Of a DNA stretch of 64,000 nt, positions 15,817 through 24,185 are shown piece after piece. Origin of the DNA: Candidatus Zixiibacteriota bacterium (GTDB lineage: Bacteria > Zixibacteria > MSB-5A5 > GN15 > PGXB01); contig JAFGTT010000019.1 of the NCBI GenBank assembly GCA_016933955.1, forward strand, positions 1 through 64,000, written 5' to 3'. A model generated the notes under the pieces. The model ran no database searches, was not told the DNA's origin, and was given only the letters and a program-made list of their open reading frames with translations. Numbering within the stretch: position 1 is the stretch's first letter; every line of letters begins with the position of its first letter. The translations under genes were made by a program, and so were the position numbers.

Positions 15817-16995
15817 TCAGATATTGATTTGCAGTTGGGTTCGAAGGCTGATATCTTTCCAGGTATCGCCGTTACGGGTATGACCGTACCAGGTGAGATC
15901 ATTCTGCAATTCCAGATAGCCCCCGATTATTTCATAATTGAGTCCGGCACCGATCTCGACCTCCCGATCGAGCACTTTCCCGGTGGATTCGTAAGCGTCT
16001 CGCGCCAGATCGCTTTTGAAATCCACCCGGGCGTAACGGATTGAAATGTCCAGCCGGGGATTAATCGTATAAGCTGCTTGAAGCAGTAAACCGGTCATGC
16101 CCAATCTTGTCAGGGGCGGATGACCCATATCCACAAAACCGGCATAGCCGATAACCAGAAACGATGCCCCATGATATTTCACCAGCAGTTCCGGGGCCAG
16201 TCGAATCGAAAAATCCTGGTGTTCGGTCAGCTCGATATCCCAGCCGCCGCTTATTCCCAGGCTGTATCGCAAACCGCCGCCTTCCTTATCGGCGTTGCTT
16301 TTCACATTAATACCGTTGGCGTTATAAGATAAATTTAAAAACAGCTCGGGATGGAAATCGGCCCGTGAGGCGGAATTGGCCAAATCCGAGGGATTGGGAC
16401 GGTCTTGGTTATAAACCAGCGGAACCCCGATTCCATGAGAAGCGCGGGCATTAACCCCGGTGAAAACACCGGCGGCATAAGCCCATTCGGGCGGGCTGGT
16501 ATAACCGTTGTGAACCATTAGACCCATCTGGCGCTCGCCTCCGAAATACTTGGAAACAACGGCCCAATCAGGGTAAATCAACCGGCTGAATGACTGCATC
16601 CTGTAATTGGTAAACGGGACTTTGTACTGCCCGGCCCGGAACTGCAAATTGTCATTGAAGCGATAATTCAAATAAAGATCCATCAACTCCAGCGACTTGG
16701 GGGCGAAGCTGAGATGGGTCCGGTAGGTCAGATCAGGCGAACCGAGTATTCCCGACAGAATCAGCCTGAGCCGCCGCGCTTCCATATAAACCTTATCGGA
16801 CCGCTCATTACTCGGGTCATTGTCCTTGTTTTCATATTCCATTTTGAGTTGGCCGATAAGCTGGATTCTCAGACTGCTGTTGCCGTCCTGACTTTTAAAT
16901 TCAAACGGGCCGATTTTGGATTCGGCCGATGTATTCCGGCTGATAATTGCCGCCAGGGCCAGAAGCCATATCACCGAAATTGATTTGCCTAACAT
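15817..16995 (-). CDS. OprO/OprP-type outer-membrane porin
   Basis: A 392-residue outer-membrane barrel of the phosphate-selective porin O/P family. A signal peptide ends near 'SRNTSA', then come 'RIQLIGQLKMEYEN', 'RRLRLILSGILGSPDLTYRTHL', 'LQFRAGQYKVPFTNYRMQS' and 'GGERQMGLMVHNGY', all typical of the family. The C-terminal strand ends 'RTQLQINI'. Family members pass phosphate, pyrophosphate or other organic anions, and in environmental bacteria they are often linked to unrelated nutrient loci. It is divergent from the mttB operon (220 bp between starts), so it could admit a methylated substrate for that operon; this is inference. Confidence 0.85.
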   Translation of the reverse strand: MLGKSISVIWLLALAAIISRNTSAESKIGPFEFKSQDGNSSLRIQLIGQLKMEYENKDNDPSNERSDKVYMEARRLRLILSGILGSPDLTYRTHLSFAPKSLELMDLYLNYRFNDNLQFRAGQYKVPFTNYRMQSFSRLIYPDWAVVSKYFGGERQMGLMVHNGYTSPPEWAYAAGVFTGVNARASHGIGVPLVYNQDRPNPSDLANSASRADFHPELFLNLSYNANGINVKSNADKEGGGLRYSLGISGGWDIELTEHQDFSIRLAPELLVKYHGASFLVIGYAGFVDMGHPPLTRLGMTGLLLQAAYTINPRLDISIRYARVDFKSDLARDAYESTGKVLDREVEIGAGLNYEIIGGYLELQNDLTWYGHTRNGDTWKDISLRTQLQINI

Positions 16996-17214: not shown

Positions 17215-18675
17215 ATGAGGCCGCGGGTCAGATTTCTGGATGACAGCCTGATCGAACGGATTATCTCCGAAGCCAGGGATATTCTCTGTCAACTGGGTGT
17301 GACCATTCACAATGATAGAGTTCTCTCATTACTGGCCGACAATGGTGCCACCGTCGATATTTCCGAACGCCTGGTCCGCTTCACCCCGGCTCTTATCGAC
17401 CGCGCCCTGGGGACGACACCGGACTCGATTACGCTCTATGATGTTCTGGGTCTCAAGGCGGTCGATATTTCCGGAGATAAGGTTCATTTCACTCCCGGCT
17501 CATCGGCTGTTTATATGCTTGACAGCGGGGCTCATGAATCGCGCTGGGCAACTTCGGCCGACTATATCAAATTCGCCAAAATAATCGGTCAACTGGAATA
17601 TCTGCATTCCCAGAGCACAGCTATGGTGCCGTCCGATGTCCATGAAAAAATCGCTGACAGTTACCGGCTGTTTTTAAGCCTGCTTTACTGCGAGAAACCG
17701 GTGGTCACCGGCACCTTCACCATCGAGTCGTTCAAATTGATGAAAAACCTGCAGGTGACCGTGCGCGGCTCGGAGAAAGAACTGGCGGCTAAACCGCTGA
17801 CCATCTTTTCGGCTTGCCCGACTTCGCCGCTCAAATGGAGTGATGTCACCTCGCAAAACCTGCTCGATTGCGCCCGGTATAAAATTCCGGTTGAATTAGT
17901 GGCTATGCCGATGGCCGGGTTTATCGCCCCGGTGACCCTGGTTGGGACCCTGGTCCAGCATACGGCCGAAACCCTGAGCGGCCTGGTTATCAGCCAGACC
18001 GCCAATCCCGGGACACCGGTTCTTTATGGCGGTTCGCCGGGAATTTTCGATATCCGCTATGAAACCACCCCGATGGGCGCCCCGGAGACCGAGATGATCG
18101 ATTGTGCCTACGGCGAGATCGGAAAATATCTTAAAATTCCGACTCAGGCTTATATCGCCTTGAGCGATGCCAAACATCTGGATGCTCAGGCCGGGTTGGA
18201 GACCTCGATGGGGGCTGTTCTGGCGGGTCTGGCGGGGATAAATCATATTTCCGGCCCCGGGATGCTCGATTTCGAGAATTGCTTCAGCCTCGAAAAACTG
18301 GTGGTGGATAATGAAATCTGCGGCATGGTTTACCGTATTCTGGCCGGGATTGAGCCAAAAGAGGATTTTCCGGCAATCCCCCGGTTTGAGGAATTATTGA
18401 AAGAACAACATTTACTGATTTCGAAACATACGCGTAAATATCTTAAAGAGGAACATTTCCAGCCGGGACCGGTTATCGAGCGGGCCAATCGCGCCCGATG
18501 GCTTAAAGAAGGTTCGCTGACCCTCGGTGAAAAGGCCCGAAAAGAAGTCGAAAAACTTGTCAATAGATATGAACCATCCCGGCTCGATAGAGATATAAAG
18601 AAAGAACTGGTTCGGTTGATGGAAGAAGAAGCCCGGCGGTATGGGTTTACAAAATTACCGCCAATAGAATTATGA
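17215..18675 (+). CDS. MttB-family (non-pyrrolysine) corrinoid methyltransferase
   Basis: A 486-residue member of the trimethylamine methyltransferase (MttB) family. These enzymes move a methyl group from a methylated amine to a cob(I)alamin protein. The frame has no internal amber codon, so it belongs to the pyrrolysine-free branch, whose characterised members (such as MtgB) act on quaternary amines such as glycine betaine, proline betaine or carnitine. Family features include 'FTPGSSAVYMLDS', 'FSACPTSPLKWSD', 'PVLYGGSPGIFD' and 'GLETSMGAVLAGLAGINHISGPGML'. It heads a four-gene operon and overlaps the next gene by 4 bp (ATGA). The partner corrinoid protein lies two genes on. The actual substrate is unknown. 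Confidence 0.92.
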   Translation: MRPRVRFLDDSLIERIISEARDILCQLGVTIHNDRVLSLLADNGATVDISERLVRFTPALIDRALGTTPDSITLYDVLGLKAVDISGDKVHFTPGSSAVYMLDSGAHESRWATSADYIKFAKIIGQLEYLHSQSTAMVPSDVHEKIADSYRLFLSLLYCEKPVVTGTFTIESFKLMKNLQVTVRGSEKELAAKPLTIFSACPTSPLKWSDVTSQNLLDCARYKIPVELVAMPMAGFIAPVTLVGTLVQHTAETLSGLVISQTANPGTPVLYGGSPGIFDIRYETTPMGAPETEMIDCAYGEIGKYLKIPTQAYIALSDAKHLDAQAGLETSMGAVLAGLAGINHISGPGMLDFENCFSLEKLVVDNEICGMVYRILAGIEPKEDFPAIPRFEELLKEQHLLISKHTRKYLKEEHFQPGPVIERANRARWLKEGSLTLGEKARKEVEKLVNRYEPSRLDRDIKKELVRLMEEEARRYGFTKLPPIEL

Positions 18676-19388
18676 GACAGATAACCAAATTCGAACCGAA
18701 CAATATAAAACCGGATCATTCCGCGGTTCTTGCGGCCCAGGGTGTCCCGAAAAACAACGGTACCTCACCCAGAATTGAAAAACTGGCTGATGATGCCATT
18801 AATATTTTTCTGGGACTTTGCGATGCCAATGCCATCATTTCGGATATCTCACCGGCCCATTTCGATCAGGTTTACCGGGGCGAGGGGAAGAATGAAAAAG
18901 AGACGCCGGTAGCCGAAATTTTCCCCCATGCCGATCATCTGGCCCTTTTCGCCATTACGGTCGGCGAGAATCTTTCCACCAGAATCGAACAGCTTTTCCG
19001 CGATAATGATTTTGCTCTGGGGGCGATGCTCGATGCGGCGGCTTCCGAGGCGACCGAACTGGCCGGGAAAATCGCCGAACGGAAATACCTTGATGACCTG
19101 ATCAACAACCGGATGACTTCGCCCAACCATGTCGCCGTGCGCTACAGCCCCGGTTACTGCGGCTGGCATATCAGCGGGCAGAAAAAATTGTTCGAATACC
19201 TCTATCCCAATGAAATCGGGATTTATCTTAATCATTCGTACCTGATGAAACCGCTCAAGTCCATCTCCGGGGTGATCCTGGTTGGCCCGCCGGATATACA
19301 TGATTTCGAAATCACCTACGATTTCTGTAATCAGTGCCGCGATATGGGTTGCCGGGAAAGAATCAGGACCATTATGGGCCGGGGCTGA
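18672..19388 (+). CDS. Stand-alone MetH activation-domain protein
   Basis: A 238-residue protein resembling the C-terminal AdoMet-binding activation domain of cobalamin-dependent methionine synthase, here as a separate polypeptide. The core is 'RYSPGYCGWHISGQKKLF' followed by 'NEIGIYLNHSYLMKPLKSISG', matching the MetH pattern R-x-x-P-G-Y and a conserved M-x-P. It probably re-activates oxidised cob(II)alamin on the corrinoid protein by reductive methylation with S-adenosylmethionine. An unusual extra is a Cys cluster near the C-terminus, 'CNQCRDMGC', absent from E. coli MetH, which might bind metal or an iron-sulfur centre. Its ATG overlaps the mttB stop and it is followed after 9 bp by the corrinoid protein gene. 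Confidence 0.88.
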   Translation: MRQITKFEPNNIKPDHSAVLAAQGVPKNNGTSPRIEKLADDAINIFLGLCDANAIISDISPAHFDQVYRGEGKNEKETPVAEIFPHADHLALFAITVGENLSTRIEQLFRDNDFALGAMLDAAASEATELAGKIAERKYLDDLINNRMTSPNHVAVRYSPGYCGWHISGQKKLFEYLYPNEIGIYLNHSYLMKPLKSISGVILVGPPDIHDFEITYDFCNQCRDMGCRERIRTIMGRG

Positions 19389-19397
19389 GGAAACCGG

Positions 19398-20036
19398 ATG
19401 GATATACTGGCGGAAATTTCGAAAAATCTTGAGAACGGCGATGATGAACAAGTCGGCCGCCTGACCCGCGAGGCGCTGGATCAGAAAATACCGGCCAAAA
19501 CCATACTCGATAACGGTCTTCTGGCCGGGATGAAGACGATCGGCGCGAAATTCAAAAATCATGAAATATTTTTGCCGGATGTCCTTCTGGCGGCCCGGGC
19601 GATGTATGCCGGGCTGGATTTGCTTAAACCGCATCTGATCGCCGATGATGTCCCCATGGTCGGACGGGTGGTGCTGGGAACCGTCCAGGGGGATCTGCAT
19701 GATATCGGGAAAAACCTGGTGGGGATCATGCTCAAGGGAGCGGGTTTCGAAATTGTCGATCTGGGGAACGATGTCCCGCCGGAGAGATTTATCAACGCCG
19801 CCCTCGAAAACGAGGCCTCGGTAATCGGCCTTTCGGCTCTCCTGACCACCACCATGCCGAATATGAAGAAAGTGGTCGATCTGGTTCGGGAGAAAGGGCT
19901 TTCGGACCGGATCAAGGTGATTATCGGCGGGGCCCCGGTGACCGAGGAATATGCCGGGGATATCGGCGCCGATGCCTATGCTTTCGACGGGGTCAATTCG
20001 GTCGACCGAATCAAACAGCTTTTAAATATAGAGTAA
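19398..20036 (+). CDS. Corrinoid (cobalamin-binding) methyltransferase subunit, MtbC/MetH-like
   Basis: A 212-residue two-domain methyl carrier. Residues 1-85 form the helical cap domain ('MDILAEISKNLENGD'). Residues 88-212 form the Rossmann-type B12 domain with the histidine-ligand motif D-x-H-x-x-G at D99, H101 and G104 ('GDLHDIGKNLV'), then 'VIGLSALLTTTM' and 'VIIGGAPVT'. H101 would replace the lower axial ligand of cobalamin. It accepts the methyl group from the MttB-like enzyme and, by neighbourhood, passes it to homocysteine through the next gene product. The stop is one base from the next ATG. Length and motif are those of a complete, active family member. Confidence 0.95.
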   Translation: MDILAEISKNLENGDDEQVGRLTREALDQKIPAKTILDNGLLAGMKTIGAKFKNHEIFLPDVLLAARAMYAGLDLLKPHLIADDVPMVGRVVLGTVQGDLHDIGKNLVGIMLKGAGFEIVDLGNDVPPERFINAALENEASVIGLSALLTTTMPNMKKVVDLVREKGLSDRIKVIIGGAPVTEEYAGDIGADAYAFDGVNSVDRIKQLLNIE

Positions 20037-20037
20037 C

Positions 20038-20934
20038 ATGACAAATTTTCTGGACCGCATCGCGCGGGGCGACATCCTGGTGGCCGACGGCGCGATGGGG
20101 ACGCAGTTGATGGAGCGCGGGGTCGATGTGACCCGGTGCCCCGAACAAATCAACCTGACTCATCCGGAGATACTCGAGGATATCGCCCGGAGATATTTTG
20201 AGGCCGGGGCGGAGATCGTGCAGGCCAATACCTTCGGTGCTTCGCCTCTCAAACTGGCCCGGTACGGTCTCGAGGATCGGACTGAGGAAATTATCGGCAA
20301 CGCCGTGGCCGCGGTCCGCCGGGCGGTCGGGGCTAAAGCTTATATCTACGGATCCTGCGGGCCATGCACCAGAATACTCAAACCCTTCGGCGATGCCGAC
20401 CCCGATGACGTTTACGGCAGTTTTGTGCGGCAGATGCGCTCTTTTGTCGAGTTCGGAGTCGATATTATCGGTATCGAAACCATGACCGATATCACCGAGG
20501 CGGTCCTGGCGGTCCGGGCGGCGCGAAGCGTTTCGGACAGCATCCCGGTTATGGCCGCCATGACTTTCGATCCCACCCCGCGCGGGTTTTTTACCATCAT
20601 GGGAGTCGATATCCGGACAGCCGTGAAGAAACTGACCGAGGCCGGGGCCGATCTGGTCGGCTCTAACTGCGGTAACGGGATCGAGCGGATGGTTGAAATC
20701 GCCGGGGAGTTTAAAAACTATACCGACCGGCCGCTGGTGATTCAGTCCAATGCCGGATTGCCGCAGATCAAAGACGGGCGGGCGGTGTACCCGGAAAGCC
20801 CGGAATTCATGGCCGACAAGGCCATCCGTCTGGTCGAGATCGGGGTGGCCGTTATCGGGGGATGTTGCGGCACGACCCCGGAACATATCGCGGCCTTATG
20901 CCGGATGGTCGATTCCCACCACCGTGTGCAATAG
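20038..20934 (+). CDS. Homocysteine S-methyltransferase (MetH N-terminal-domain type, stand-alone)
   Basis: A 298-residue TIM barrel that transfers a methyl group to homocysteine to make methionine. The zinc-binding cysteines are visible at 'GSNCGNG' (about residue 210) and 'GGCCGTTPEHI' (about 275). The N-terminus 'ILVADGAMGTQLMERG' and 'EIVQANTFGAS' match the MetH homocysteine domain. No methyltetrahydrofolate-binding, cobalamin or activation domain is attached; the latter two are encoded just upstream as separate genes. Together the operon holds every MetH function except the folate site, which is replaced by the MttB-like enzyme. Likely role: methionine from a methylated amine. BHMT-like direct transfer is an alternative. 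Confidence 0.92.
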   Translation: MTNFLDRIARGDILVADGAMGTQLMERGVDVTRCPEQINLTHPEILEDIARRYFEAGAEIVQANTFGASPLKLARYGLEDRTEEIIGNAVAAVRRAVGAKAYIYGSCGPCTRILKPFGDADPDDVYGSFVRQMRSFVEFGVDIIGIETMTDITEAVLAVRAARSVSDSIPVMAAMTFDPTPRGFFTIMGVDIRTAVKKLTEAGADLVGSNCGNGIERMVEIAGEFKNYTDRPLVIQSNAGLPQIKDGRAVYPESPEFMADKAIRLVEIGVAVIGGCCGTTPEHIAALCRMVDSHHRVQ

Positions 20935-21017: not shown

Positions 21018-21146
21018 TGTCATTCCCGCCCCTTTTCATGTCATTCCCATGAAAATGGGAATCCAGTCTTAGTAATCCCCTCTCGAGAGGGGTGGATCCG
21101 CCGCAGGCATTCATGCCGCAGGCGGAGACGGGGTGTGTCATCCAAT
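21018..21146. repeat. Long direct repeat, copy 1 (129 bp)
   Basis: Nearly identical to 22043-22170, differing by a few bases around CCAGTCTTAGT / CCATCTTATT. It is built of nested palindromes: CATTCCCATGAAAATGGGAATC, CCCCTCTCGAGAGGGG and CGCAGGCATTCATGCCGCAGGCGG. This looks like a dispersed palindromic (REP/MITE-like) element rather than coding sequence. Confidence 0.9.
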
Positions 21147-21296
21147 CTGCCCAAGAGGATATTGATTTTAGGCTTGGCAGTATTGCGGTTTCCATCTTTC
21201 TTAATATGGAAGAAAACAAAAATATCATATTTGCGGAAAGAAATCAAAATAAAAGGATACCCATATTTTGTTTTAAAAGACCGGGAGGTTACTATT

Positions 21297-22042: not shown

Positions 22043-22170
22043 TGTCATTCCCGCCCCTTTTCATGTCATTCCCATGAAAATGGGAATCCATCTTATTAAT
22101 CCCCTCTCGAGAGGGGTGGATCCGCCGCAGGCATTCATGCCGCAGGCGGAGACGGGGTGTGTCATCCAAT
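22043..22170. repeat. Long direct repeat, copy 2 (128 bp)
   Basis: Second copy of the 21018-21146 element, same orientation, about 1.0 kb away. It has the same three nested palindromes. The pair flanks the AT-rich segment with the broken lipoprotein gene. Confidence 0.9.
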
Positions 22171-22331
22171 CCGCTTTACATACCCCTAAAATCCCCTGCT
22201 CATACGCGTCAGACGCTTTCGTCTGCCCCTGTGTCACGGATAAACAACGGCCCAAAAAGCGGAGTTGACAAAACGGGGGAAATTCTTTTCATTACCGGCC
22301 AAATATTAAGCGAGTACACCGGAGAAAAGGA

Positions 22332-24185
22332 TTGAAAATCGACAGTATCGCCATTCTCGATTGCGGCGGCCAGTATACCAAGGTGATTGACCGCCGGGTT
22401 CGGCAGTTATCGGTCAGATCCGAGGTTTACCCCCTTGATATCTCCCCGGAAACGATCAAAGGCTATGACGGGATAATTCTGTCCGGCGGACCGAAATCGG
22501 TCTGGGATGGCGGGCTCGATTATGATGCGGGAATACTCGAGATGAGCCTTCCGGTCCTGGGAATTTGCTACGGGATGCATCTGCTGAATAAACATTTCGG
22601 GGGAATTGTCTCGCCGGGGGTCCGTCATGAGTACGGCGAAACCGAAATCGAGATCGAACCCGGGTGTCCTCTGTTTGACGATCTGGCGAAAGACCAGCGG
22701 GTGCTGATGAGTCATGGCGATTCGGTCGAAGTCCTGGCCCCGGGTTTCAAACAGGCGGCCCATTCGGATAAAGTCTGCGCCGCGCTTTATGACGAAAAAC
22801 GGAAATTGTACGGGGTGCAGTTCCATCCCGAGGTGGACTTGACGGTCAACGGCATGAAAATGCTCGCCAATTTTGTACATAAGATTTGCGGCCTGGAAGG
22901 CAACTACATCCTCGAGGACCGGATCGAAACAGCCATTGCCAAAATCAGGCAACAGGTGGGCGATGGAAAAGTGCTGGTGCTGGTCAGCGGGGGAGTCGAT
23001 TCGGCCGTGAGCGCCGCCCTTCTGGCCAAAGCGCTCGATGAGGACCAGATTTATGCAATCCATGTCGATCACGGTTTGATGCGCAAAAACGAAAGCGATT
23101 TGATCTGCCGGCAGTTGGAACGGATGGGCTTGAAACATCTGATCCGCGAAAACGCCGAAAAGAAATTCTTCAATTCGATAGTCAAAGTAAACGGTCACGA
23201 AATCGGCCCGCTGGTGAAAACAACCGACCCGGAAGAAAAACGGAATATTATCGGCGAGGTTTTTGTCGAGGTTATCAGGGAAGTTTCCGACCGCCTGGGT
23301 CTTGACCCGGAAACCACCTTCTGGGCGCAGGGAACCCTGCGGCCCGATTTAATCGAGAGCGGCAATCCCGATGTCAGCAAAACGGCTCATAAAATCAAGA
23401 CTCATCACAACGATGTCGAGATGATCCGGCAGGCCCGGGCTCGCGGGATGGTGATCGAGACTAACTGGGACTGGCATAAGGACGAGGTTCGGCAGGTAGC
23501 CCGGCGGATGGGAATCGATGAGAGTATCGCCTCACGTCAGCCGTTTCCCGGGCCGGGACTGGCGATCCGCCTGATCTGCAACCGGGCCGGCGGAGAGGTT
23601 GCGCCCGGGGTAATCGAGCAGTTCAAGCAGGTGATGGCCAATATCGGAGGCGAATACAAGGGGGCGGTGTTGCCGGTGCGGAGTGTCGGGGTGCAGGGAG
23701 ATGTCCGCAGTTATCGGCACCTGTCGCTGATCTGGGGCAAGGGACTCGATTTCGACTGGCCGCAGATTTATAAAATCGGGACCAGCCTGCCAAACCGGGT
23801 CGAGGGTGTCAACCGGGTGGCCTATATCCTGAATAAAACCGGGATCGAACGACCGATTACGACTCATGAAATGTATCTCAACCGTGAGACGGTGGATTTA
23901 CTCCGGGAGCTCGATCATGTGGTGACCGGCAAACTCAATAAGCCGCCGATGAGCCAGGTGCTGGCGGTGCTGGTTCCGATCGGGATCGATCGGAAGTACT
24001 CCGTGGCGATCCGGACCTTTATCACCAATGATTATATGACCGGCCGTCCGGCTGTTATCGGCGAGGATGTGATACGGGAAGATATCGCCGATCTGACCGC
24101 TGAAATCGAAAACAAGTTCCGTGAAATCGACCTGGTGCTCTACGATGTCACCAGTAAACCACCCGCCACGGTCGAGTGGGAATAG
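22332..24185 (+). CDS. guaA: GMP synthase (glutamine-hydrolysing), eukaryote-like long form
   Basis: Converts XMP to GMP using ATP and glutamine. Domain order: class I glutamine amidotransferase (about 1-190, nucleophile C79 in 'VLGICYGMH', later 'VQFHPEVD'), then the ATP pyrophosphatase (PP-loop 'LVSGGVDSAV'), then the dimerisation domain. At 617 residues it is about 90 longer than E. coli GuaA. The extra length lies in the C-terminal domain ('LPVRSVGVQGDVRSYRHLS' through 'IRTFITNDYMTG') and, with 'KTHHNDVEMIRQ' and 'HKDEVR', resembles the human enzyme more than E. coli. The start is TTG 22332 with GGAGAAAAGGA upstream. It appears monocistronic. Confidence 0.95.
   Translation: MKIDSIAILDCGGQYTKVIDRRVRQLSVRSEVYPLDISPETIKGYDGIILSGGPKSVWDGGLDYDAGILEMSLPVLGICYGMHLLNKHFGGIVSPGVRHEYGETEIEIEPGCPLFDDLAKDQRVLMSHGDSVEVLAPGFKQAAHSDKVCAALYDEKRKLYGVQFHPEVDLTVNGMKMLANFVHKICGLEGNYILEDRIETAIAKIRQQVGDGKVLVLVSGGVDSAVSAALLAKALDEDQIYAIHVDHGLMRKNESDLICRQLERMGLKHLIRENAEKKFFNSIVKVNGHEIGPLVKTTDPEEKRNIIGEVFVEVIREVSDRLGLDPETTFWAQGTLRPDLIESGNPDVSKTAHKIKTHHNDVEMIRQARARGMVIETNWDWHKDEVRQVARRMGIDESIASRQPFPGPGLAIRLICNRAGGEVAPGVIEQFKQVMANIGGEYKGAVLPVRSVGVQGDVRSYRHLSLIWGKGLDFDWPQIYKIGTSLPNRVEGVNRVAYILNKTGIERPITTHEMYLNRETVDLLRELDHVVTGKLNKPPMSQVLAVLVPIGIDRKYSVAIRTFITNDYMTGRPAVIGEDVIREDIADLTAEIENKFREIDLVLYDVTSKPPATVEWE

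Follow-up and report, generated by a model that had tools for sequence, protein, structure and literature searches.

We identified a candidate folate-independent methionine synthase in a 64,000-nucleotide stretch of a Candidatus Zixiibacteriota genome (assembly GCA_016933955.1, contig JAFGTT010000019.1, positions 1 to 64,000; hereafter the window). Four consecutive plus-strand open reading frames (ORFs; 17215-20934) encode an MttB-family methyltransferase, an activation protein (Act), a corrinoid protein (Cor) and a homocysteine S-methyltransferase (HMT). We propose, with a probability of about 0.7, that this operon is a MetH-like methionine synthase in pieces, with an MttB-family barrel in place of the methyl-folate barrel. 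Making methionine usually depends on methyl-folate. Based on the gene set and its order, and on the absence of MetH, MetE and MetF from the window's genome and from many class relatives, we regard folate-free homocysteine methylation as well supported, both here and in a large part of the class.

The first gene (17215-18675) encodes a 486-aa MttB-family methyltransferase without pyrrolysine that matches PF06253 (MTTB) over its whole length (264 bits, 1.5e-78) and is the presumed methyl-donor module. It is followed by Act, a stand-alone MetH-type (S-adenosylmethionine) activation protein of 238 aa (18672-19388; PF02965, 3.8e-11), by Cor, a 212-aa B12-binding protein of the MtgC/MttC-like type and the predicted methyl carrier (19398-20036; PF02607 and PF02310), and by HMT, 298 aa, of the MetH homocysteine-domain type and the predicted methyl acceptor module (20038-20934; PF02574, 4.5e-66). 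The ORF list places a 4-bp overlap at the first junction and leaves 9 and 1 bp between the genes at the next two, exactly the spacing that the initial annotation had taken as a sign of a single functional unit. A Pfam scan of the operon stretch found no pterin-binding protein, and the methyl-folate domain PF00809 is absent from the operon, while the MetH-type cobalamin domain and the S-adenosylmethionine activation domain are both present as separate proteins. The domain content thus agrees with the initial annotation, which had read the locus as separate homocysteine, cobalamin and activation modules with MttB in place of the folate module.

Single-protein homocysteine methyltransferases exist, and the four genes could be mere neighbors, with HMT alone using a small methyl donor in the manner of BHMT or MmuM and the other three proteins serving another function. 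We give this reading very little credence: HMT is far nearer the MetH homocysteine domain (197 bits against the T. maritima MetH fragment 1q7m) than BHMT (68 bits against human BHMT, 1lt7), and a BHMT-type single-protein enzyme was rejected on these scores. Its residues C211, C276 and C277, which we take to be Zn ligands, are invariant, as is the D99-x-H101-D102-x-G104 (DxHDxG) motif of Cor, in both cases including a rearranged form of the cluster described below. Cor has 1y80 as its nearest solved protein, then MttC, and scores 230 bits against the MtgC model NF047996, below the cut-off of 370. Act matches T. maritima TM0269 (1j6r) in a profile search (1.9e-9), and a Foldseek search with its AlphaFold2 (AF2) model (predicted local distance difference test, pLDDT, 94.4) returned 1j6r as the nearest structure (2.8e-13), then MetH reactivation domains. 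Its SPGYCGW motif and CxxCxxxxC tail (Cys-x2-Cys-x4-Cys) are invariant or nearly so in 34 aligned rows. The conserved Zn cysteines, DxHDxG and SPGY activation motif argue for a split MetH. Residues C163, C219, C222 and C227 of Act (window 19158-19385) are invariant in the same 34 rows, but the rearranged clusters lack them; as a guess, they could form a metal site.

We surveyed the operon in a class set of 117 relatives, using a search with Act, in which the window's genome (G000) is 3.38 Mb long and 96.6% complete. Act matched 50 of the 117 class genomes, 43 of them strongly (163 bits or more, window included), and MttB-Act-Cor-HMT are adjacent in the window's order in 37 of these 43. Contig ends cut four of the remaining six; no MttB was seen in G004, whose locus includes 400 N, and the MttB of G055 is ~410 kb distant. 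The other seven matches comprise three in 1224-1230-aa frames that are MetH (G035, G039, G054) and four of a divergent cluster type (G100, G106, G108, G111), three of which carry a rearranged Cor-HMT-Act-MttB set and the fourth of which is cut at a contig start. PF06253 occurs in 46 of the 117 genomes, 45 of which have the Act gene (in the exception, G014, the MttB frame runs off a contig end), and is single copy per class genome, double matches in G009 and G031 being fragments.

The cluster extends well outside the class. Among the best 80 loci of at least 563 relatives, obtained by scanning named genomes with the Act alignment, 56 carry the full four-gene set and another 11 are truncated at contig ends; in 13, at least one of the four genes is missing despite sequence being present, two of these having little upstream room. 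Most genomes are metagenome-assembled, and their titles, phylum names included, may be wrong. The titles cover Zixibacteria, Cloacimonadota, Stahlbacteria, WOR-3, Neomarinimicrobiota, Gemmatimonadota, Planctomycetota, Ignavibacteria, Bacteroidota, Acidobacteria, Aminicenantes, Fermentibacteria, Armatimonadetes, Eisenbacteria and others, amounting to at least 15 phylum labels (15 phylum-level groups according to the tree tool). The gene order that the initial annotation had suggested looking for therefore recurs beyond chance, in the class and across phyla. A mere-neighbor arrangement would accommodate the distant MttB of G055 and the Aminicenantes loci discussed below, in which MttB and Act stand without Cor and HMT, but it sits poorly with an order kept across so many phylum labels and with rearranged clusters that hold the same gene set together.

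The AF2 model of the window MttB (pLDDT 85.9) has 7xcl (MttB) and 2qne/9yce (MtgB) as its top folds, with TM-scores of 0.82-0.84, 26-28% identity and a lead of over 20 orders of magnitude in the Foldseek ranking. Dihydropteroate synthases and MetH follow at ranks 15-17 and 34, with weak fold similarity. Together with the pterin subunit of a split MetH in Ruegeria (excerpts of PMC12478193), this similarity would favor a split MetH of the ordinary sort whose folate barrel is unusual, the MttB homologue having taken over the part of the methyl-folate (or other methyl-pterin) subunit. We consider such recruitment highly improbable given the lead of the MttB and MtgB folds and the lack of MetF (PF02219) in 31 of the 43 class cluster genomes. 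The protein fits the non-pyrrolysine MttB branch, with a PF06253 fold, no in-frame pyrrolysine codon and a cognate corrinoid protein.

We mapped the active site of the replacement barrel by hand, using an alignment with M. barkeri MttB and residues named in excerpts of PMC9842639. Pyl334, Tyr364, Gly110 and Met249 of M. barkeri MttB correspond to Leu316, Ser346, Ser96 and Met231 in the window protein; among 96 MttBs from operons, those of the window and of the rearranged clusters being included, L316 occurs in 93 (M in 3), S346 in 90, S96 in all 96 and M231 in 94, and C201, E227, H249 and F353 are present in 96/96. The pyrrolysine device for tertiary amines is lost, and the position that moves upon corrinoid-protein binding is kept. 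Because leucine replaces pyrrolysine and its two partner positions are also replaced, a tertiary amine, one of the two donor types put forward by the initial annotation, is unlikely. An already activated methyl group would instead be the natural expectation for a barrel that has lost pyrrolysine and kept its corrinoid-responsive position, and the other proposed donor, a quaternary amine, is a plausible candidate. Betaine ABC uptake (PF04069) was rejected as a donor clue, as it is found in 5/43 cluster genomes and 13/74 others, with none in G000, and shows no association with the cluster (the search did not extend to BCCT carriers, PF02028). CdmB was dropped as an MttB precedent for non-amine substrates, being a UroD-superfamily protein according to excerpts of PMC13222342.

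In a quick tree with a midpoint root and long outgroup branches, the 96 operon MttBs are separated as a single group from the four other MttB-family proteins included (99% support in the SH-like approximate likelihood ratio test). Phyla are intermixed within the group, and the tree leaves transfer and old age unseparated. A separate observation concerns PYLIS_3, the Rfam pyrrolysine insertion element, which matches at gathering score inside operon mttB in 26 of 60 cluster loci, the window not among them (for example L140 5489-5588 and L052 7432-7531). The matches start at about the pyrrolysine position, where the codon is leucine, and probably reflect coding homology rather than a working element.

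Profile searches of the whole window genome returned no match to MetF (PF02219), MetE (PF01717) or MetH. Its sole PF00809 protein is FolP (289 aa; 335 bits to the dihydropteroate synthase model TIGR01496), encoded next to folE, ftsH and a cdaA-like gene, as we read these neighbors. No corrinoid:folate methyltransferase was found within PF00809; MtrH/MtgA-type enzymes outside that family (PF02007) were not searched genome-wide, and a corrinoid-to-folate branch through such an enzyme would still require a source of methyl-folate without MetF. MetH, MetE and MetF are all absent from 26 of the 43 class cluster genomes, G000 included, and from 18 of the 28 that are of high quality (>=90% complete, <=5% contamination). 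The others have MetF only (2), MetE only (2), MetE and MetF (2), MetH and MetF (7) or all three (1), and three have a short PF00809 match besides FolP that could be a MetH fragment. MetF itself is present in 10 of the 12 class cluster genomes with MetH or MetE versus 2 of the 31 without. PF00809 matches in the class are FolP-like or MetH-like, with no stand-alone folate methyltransferase co-conserved with the cluster. Together these results support the folate-free, corrinoid-dependent route to homocysteine that the initial annotation had proposed. Its suggestion that cluster genomes lack full-length metH holds for G000 and 31-34 of its 42 cluster-bearing class relatives, depending on three short pterin matches, but for only 18 of 50 cluster genomes from other phyla.

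Several observations weigh against our proposal. In the first 50 of 65 non-Zixibacteria loci, for which MetE was not tested, the genomes have the MetF family in 36 cases, MetH-like long frames in 32, both in 29 and neither in 11, and the cluster thus cannot be read as a plain substitute for MetH. Among cross-phylum genomes, two encode a stand-alone methyl-folate:corrinoid methyltransferase (NF005719, above cut-off): at L208 the gene adjoins mttB and is transcribed away from it, and in G157, the genome of L180, it lies away from the cluster on the same contig as a MetF match. The initial annotation had named a co-conserved folate methyltransferase as counter-evidence, and two cases are not co-conservation; at these loci the corrinoid protein may be a hub also for folate, by analogy with the Mtg system. 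In four Aminicenantes loci (L178, L189, L194, L203) MttB and Act are adjacent with no Cor or HMT alongside. Neither the neighbor families nor PF04069 link a donor gene or transporter to the cluster. Finally, all of our co-occurrence counts and Fisher tests ignore shared descent.

The coexistence of MetH and MetF with the cluster in those 29 of 50 genomes would fit an extra pathway, in which the operon is a catabolic or detoxifying demethylase that strips an unwanted or nutritious compound of its methyl group and uses homocysteine as a mere sink. MttB-superfamily enzymes studied to date are catabolic demethylases, according to excerpts of PMC12155760. We nevertheless consider this role unlikely for the operon, as each class genome has one MttB copy, no transporter or oxidation gene is conserved beside the operon, and most class cluster genomes lack the MetF needed to oxidize methyl groups. 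By contrast, three plasmid MttB homologues whose surroundings we read adjoin transporter or oxidoreductase genes. At least one cross-phylum genome also has a short MetH: the 774-aa protein of G132 contains homocysteine, pterin and B12 domains and no activation domain, and six more of the 50 (G131, G138, G146, G149, G158, G162) have frames of similar length. In such genomes the operon Act might serve both machines.

The source of homocysteine bears on what a split MetH would do in the window's organism. G000 has SahH by profile search and has no PF01053 (E <= 1e-10) or PF01837 protein (MetX/MetA were not searched). PF01837 matched 0/117 class genomes, and strong PF01053 matches occur in 12 of the 26 cluster-only class genomes. 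We read 20 PF01053 proteins, 15 from those 12 genomes and 5 from genomes without a known synthase; they score best as cystathionine gamma-lyase/gamma-synthase or methionine gamma-lyase, without reaching a curated cut-off in any of the 25 models shown per protein, and score alone does not settle the direction of the reaction. In G093 a CBS/CysK-like gene precedes the PF01053 gene. Where both MetH and MetE are missing, a strong PF01053 match is found in 12/26 genomes with the cluster versus 32/41 without it (Fisher p = 0.0095, uncorrected for descent), a pattern compatible with homocysteine being drained into cysteine or, through the operon, back into methionine. De novo homocysteine synthesis was set aside on these results, with PF01837 absent throughout, PF01053 absent in G000 and its direction unsettled in relatives. 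As G000 has SahH and no known homocysteine-making gene, the likeliest role of the operon here would be to remethylate SahH-derived homocysteine in the S-adenosylmethionine cycle. The initial annotation's phrase "making methionine" is not supported as it stands and would need rewording in this sense.

Two further observations concern methionine genes in the class. Forty-one of the 117 genomes (22 of good quality; for example G007, G017 and G020) have no cluster, MetH, MetE or MetF, and most have SahH; they are either auxotrophs or users of an unknown methionine synthase. In relatives such as G111 (C16 3183-7238) and G100 (C17 7062-11125), two adjacent MetE-domain frames of ~325-350 aa lie near a 626-636-aa MetF-domain frame, an arrangement suggestive of a MetE in two pieces with a fused MetF linked to it.

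From the observed genes, order, folds, conserved catalytic residues and absent MetH, MetE and MetF, we infer the following chemistry, direction and donor. The MttB homologue would offer the Co(I) of the corrinoid protein a methyl group that is activated beforehand, as in a quaternary ammonium, a sulfonium or a comparable compound. The resulting methyl-Co(III) would pass its methyl group to the Zn-cysteine site of HMT, forming methionine. Should the cobalt slip to Co(II), Act would restore it by reductive methylation with S-adenosylmethionine, in the manner of MetH and T. maritima TM0269. The window's organism would most likely recycle SahH-derived homocysteine in this way, without methyl-folate.

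A search of PubMed Central, which holds few subscription journals and preprints, found no prior description of an MttB-Act-Cor-HMT operon. The closest published system, according to excerpts of PMC12478193, is MtgBCDE of Ruegeria pomeroyi together with the split MetH of Phaeobacter inhibens, which likewise has separate MttB-family (MtgB), corrinoid (MtgC) and homocysteine (MtgE) proteins and ties methionine synthesis to a methylated compound. There the pterin-binding MtgD is essential for methionine synthesis and betaine use; in Ruegeria the genes are scattered, and its mtgC and mtgD mutants are methionine auxotrophs, indicating that folate remains part of the pathway. In contrast, the window operon has no pterin protein, FolP being the only PF00809 protein of the genome, and includes a MetH-type activation protein (PF02965) where MtgBCDE has RamA-like reductive activation modules. 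With MetH it shares homocysteine, cobalamin and activation modules, the free-standing activation protein having a precedent in T. maritima TM0268/TM0269, but it lacks the pterin module, splits the modules into separate proteins and adds an MttB barrel. Like MtgBCA of Desulfitobacterium and MttBC of methanogens, it pairs an MttB-family protein with an MtgC/MttC-like corrinoid protein; their acceptor is folate or coenzyme M, whereas the operon's acceptor module is for homocysteine. ATP-dependent RamA-type activases, such as RamA of methanogens, serve those systems, in contrast to the S-adenosylmethionine-type activation protein here.

The core folate-independent methionine synthases MesA-MesD form four families, all MetE-type (PF01717), of which MesA-MesC are predicted to draw methyl groups from corrinoid proteins (excerpts of PMC7857596). 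The operon would resemble them in making methionine without a folate domain, and differs in being MetH-type (PF02574), with no PF01717 in G000. The operon is unusually widespread. A broader claim, whose chances we put slightly below even, is that this stable gene set, found over at least 15 phyla, adds a fifth kind to the folate-independent methionine synthases, the only one so far of MetH type; it would be fed by an endogenous or ubiquitous donor new to the MttB superfamily and would allow whole lineages to lose MetF, MetH and MetE and still keep the S-adenosylmethionine cycle. If our proposal is correct, homocysteine is recycled without methyl-folate in many uncultured lineages of sediments and the subsurface, auxotrophy predictions change for genomes scored as lacking a methionine synthase, and homocysteine becomes an acceptor for a methyltransferase superfamily that is very large and has few known substrates. 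The identity of the methyl donor is the sharp question that the operon raises.

At the window locus the operon is an isolated unit, lying between a porin-like gene on the opposite strand upstream (15817-16995, Pfam scan) and repeats and guaA downstream (at 22332, from our own reading of the ORF). Elsewhere, no non-core neighbor family is common beyond four loci, apart from three "families" on the opposite strand, beside or over core genes, that we rejected because they look like spurious antisense ORFs. In L194, one of the Aminicenantes loci, a PAP2-family gene comes next after MttB-Act. Homoserine dehydrogenase-like and aldehyde-dehydrogenase-like genes, named by eye, lie downstream on the other strand in L046, L066, L067 and L206, the last probably being the same contig as L046. 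Searches for SAM, SAH, cobalamin and T-box riboswitches found none at Rfam gathering score in the window or in 60 cluster loci, and a riboswitch link was dropped as independent evidence of methionine function. A scan of regulatory signals returned 8 promoter-like sites versus 4.1 +/- 1.9 in shuffles and terminators at chance level, and is not used as evidence. Downstream of the operon, an 84-nt intergenic repeat occurs at 21067-21150 and 22091-22174 (98% identical), each copy after an identical 48-nt repeat.

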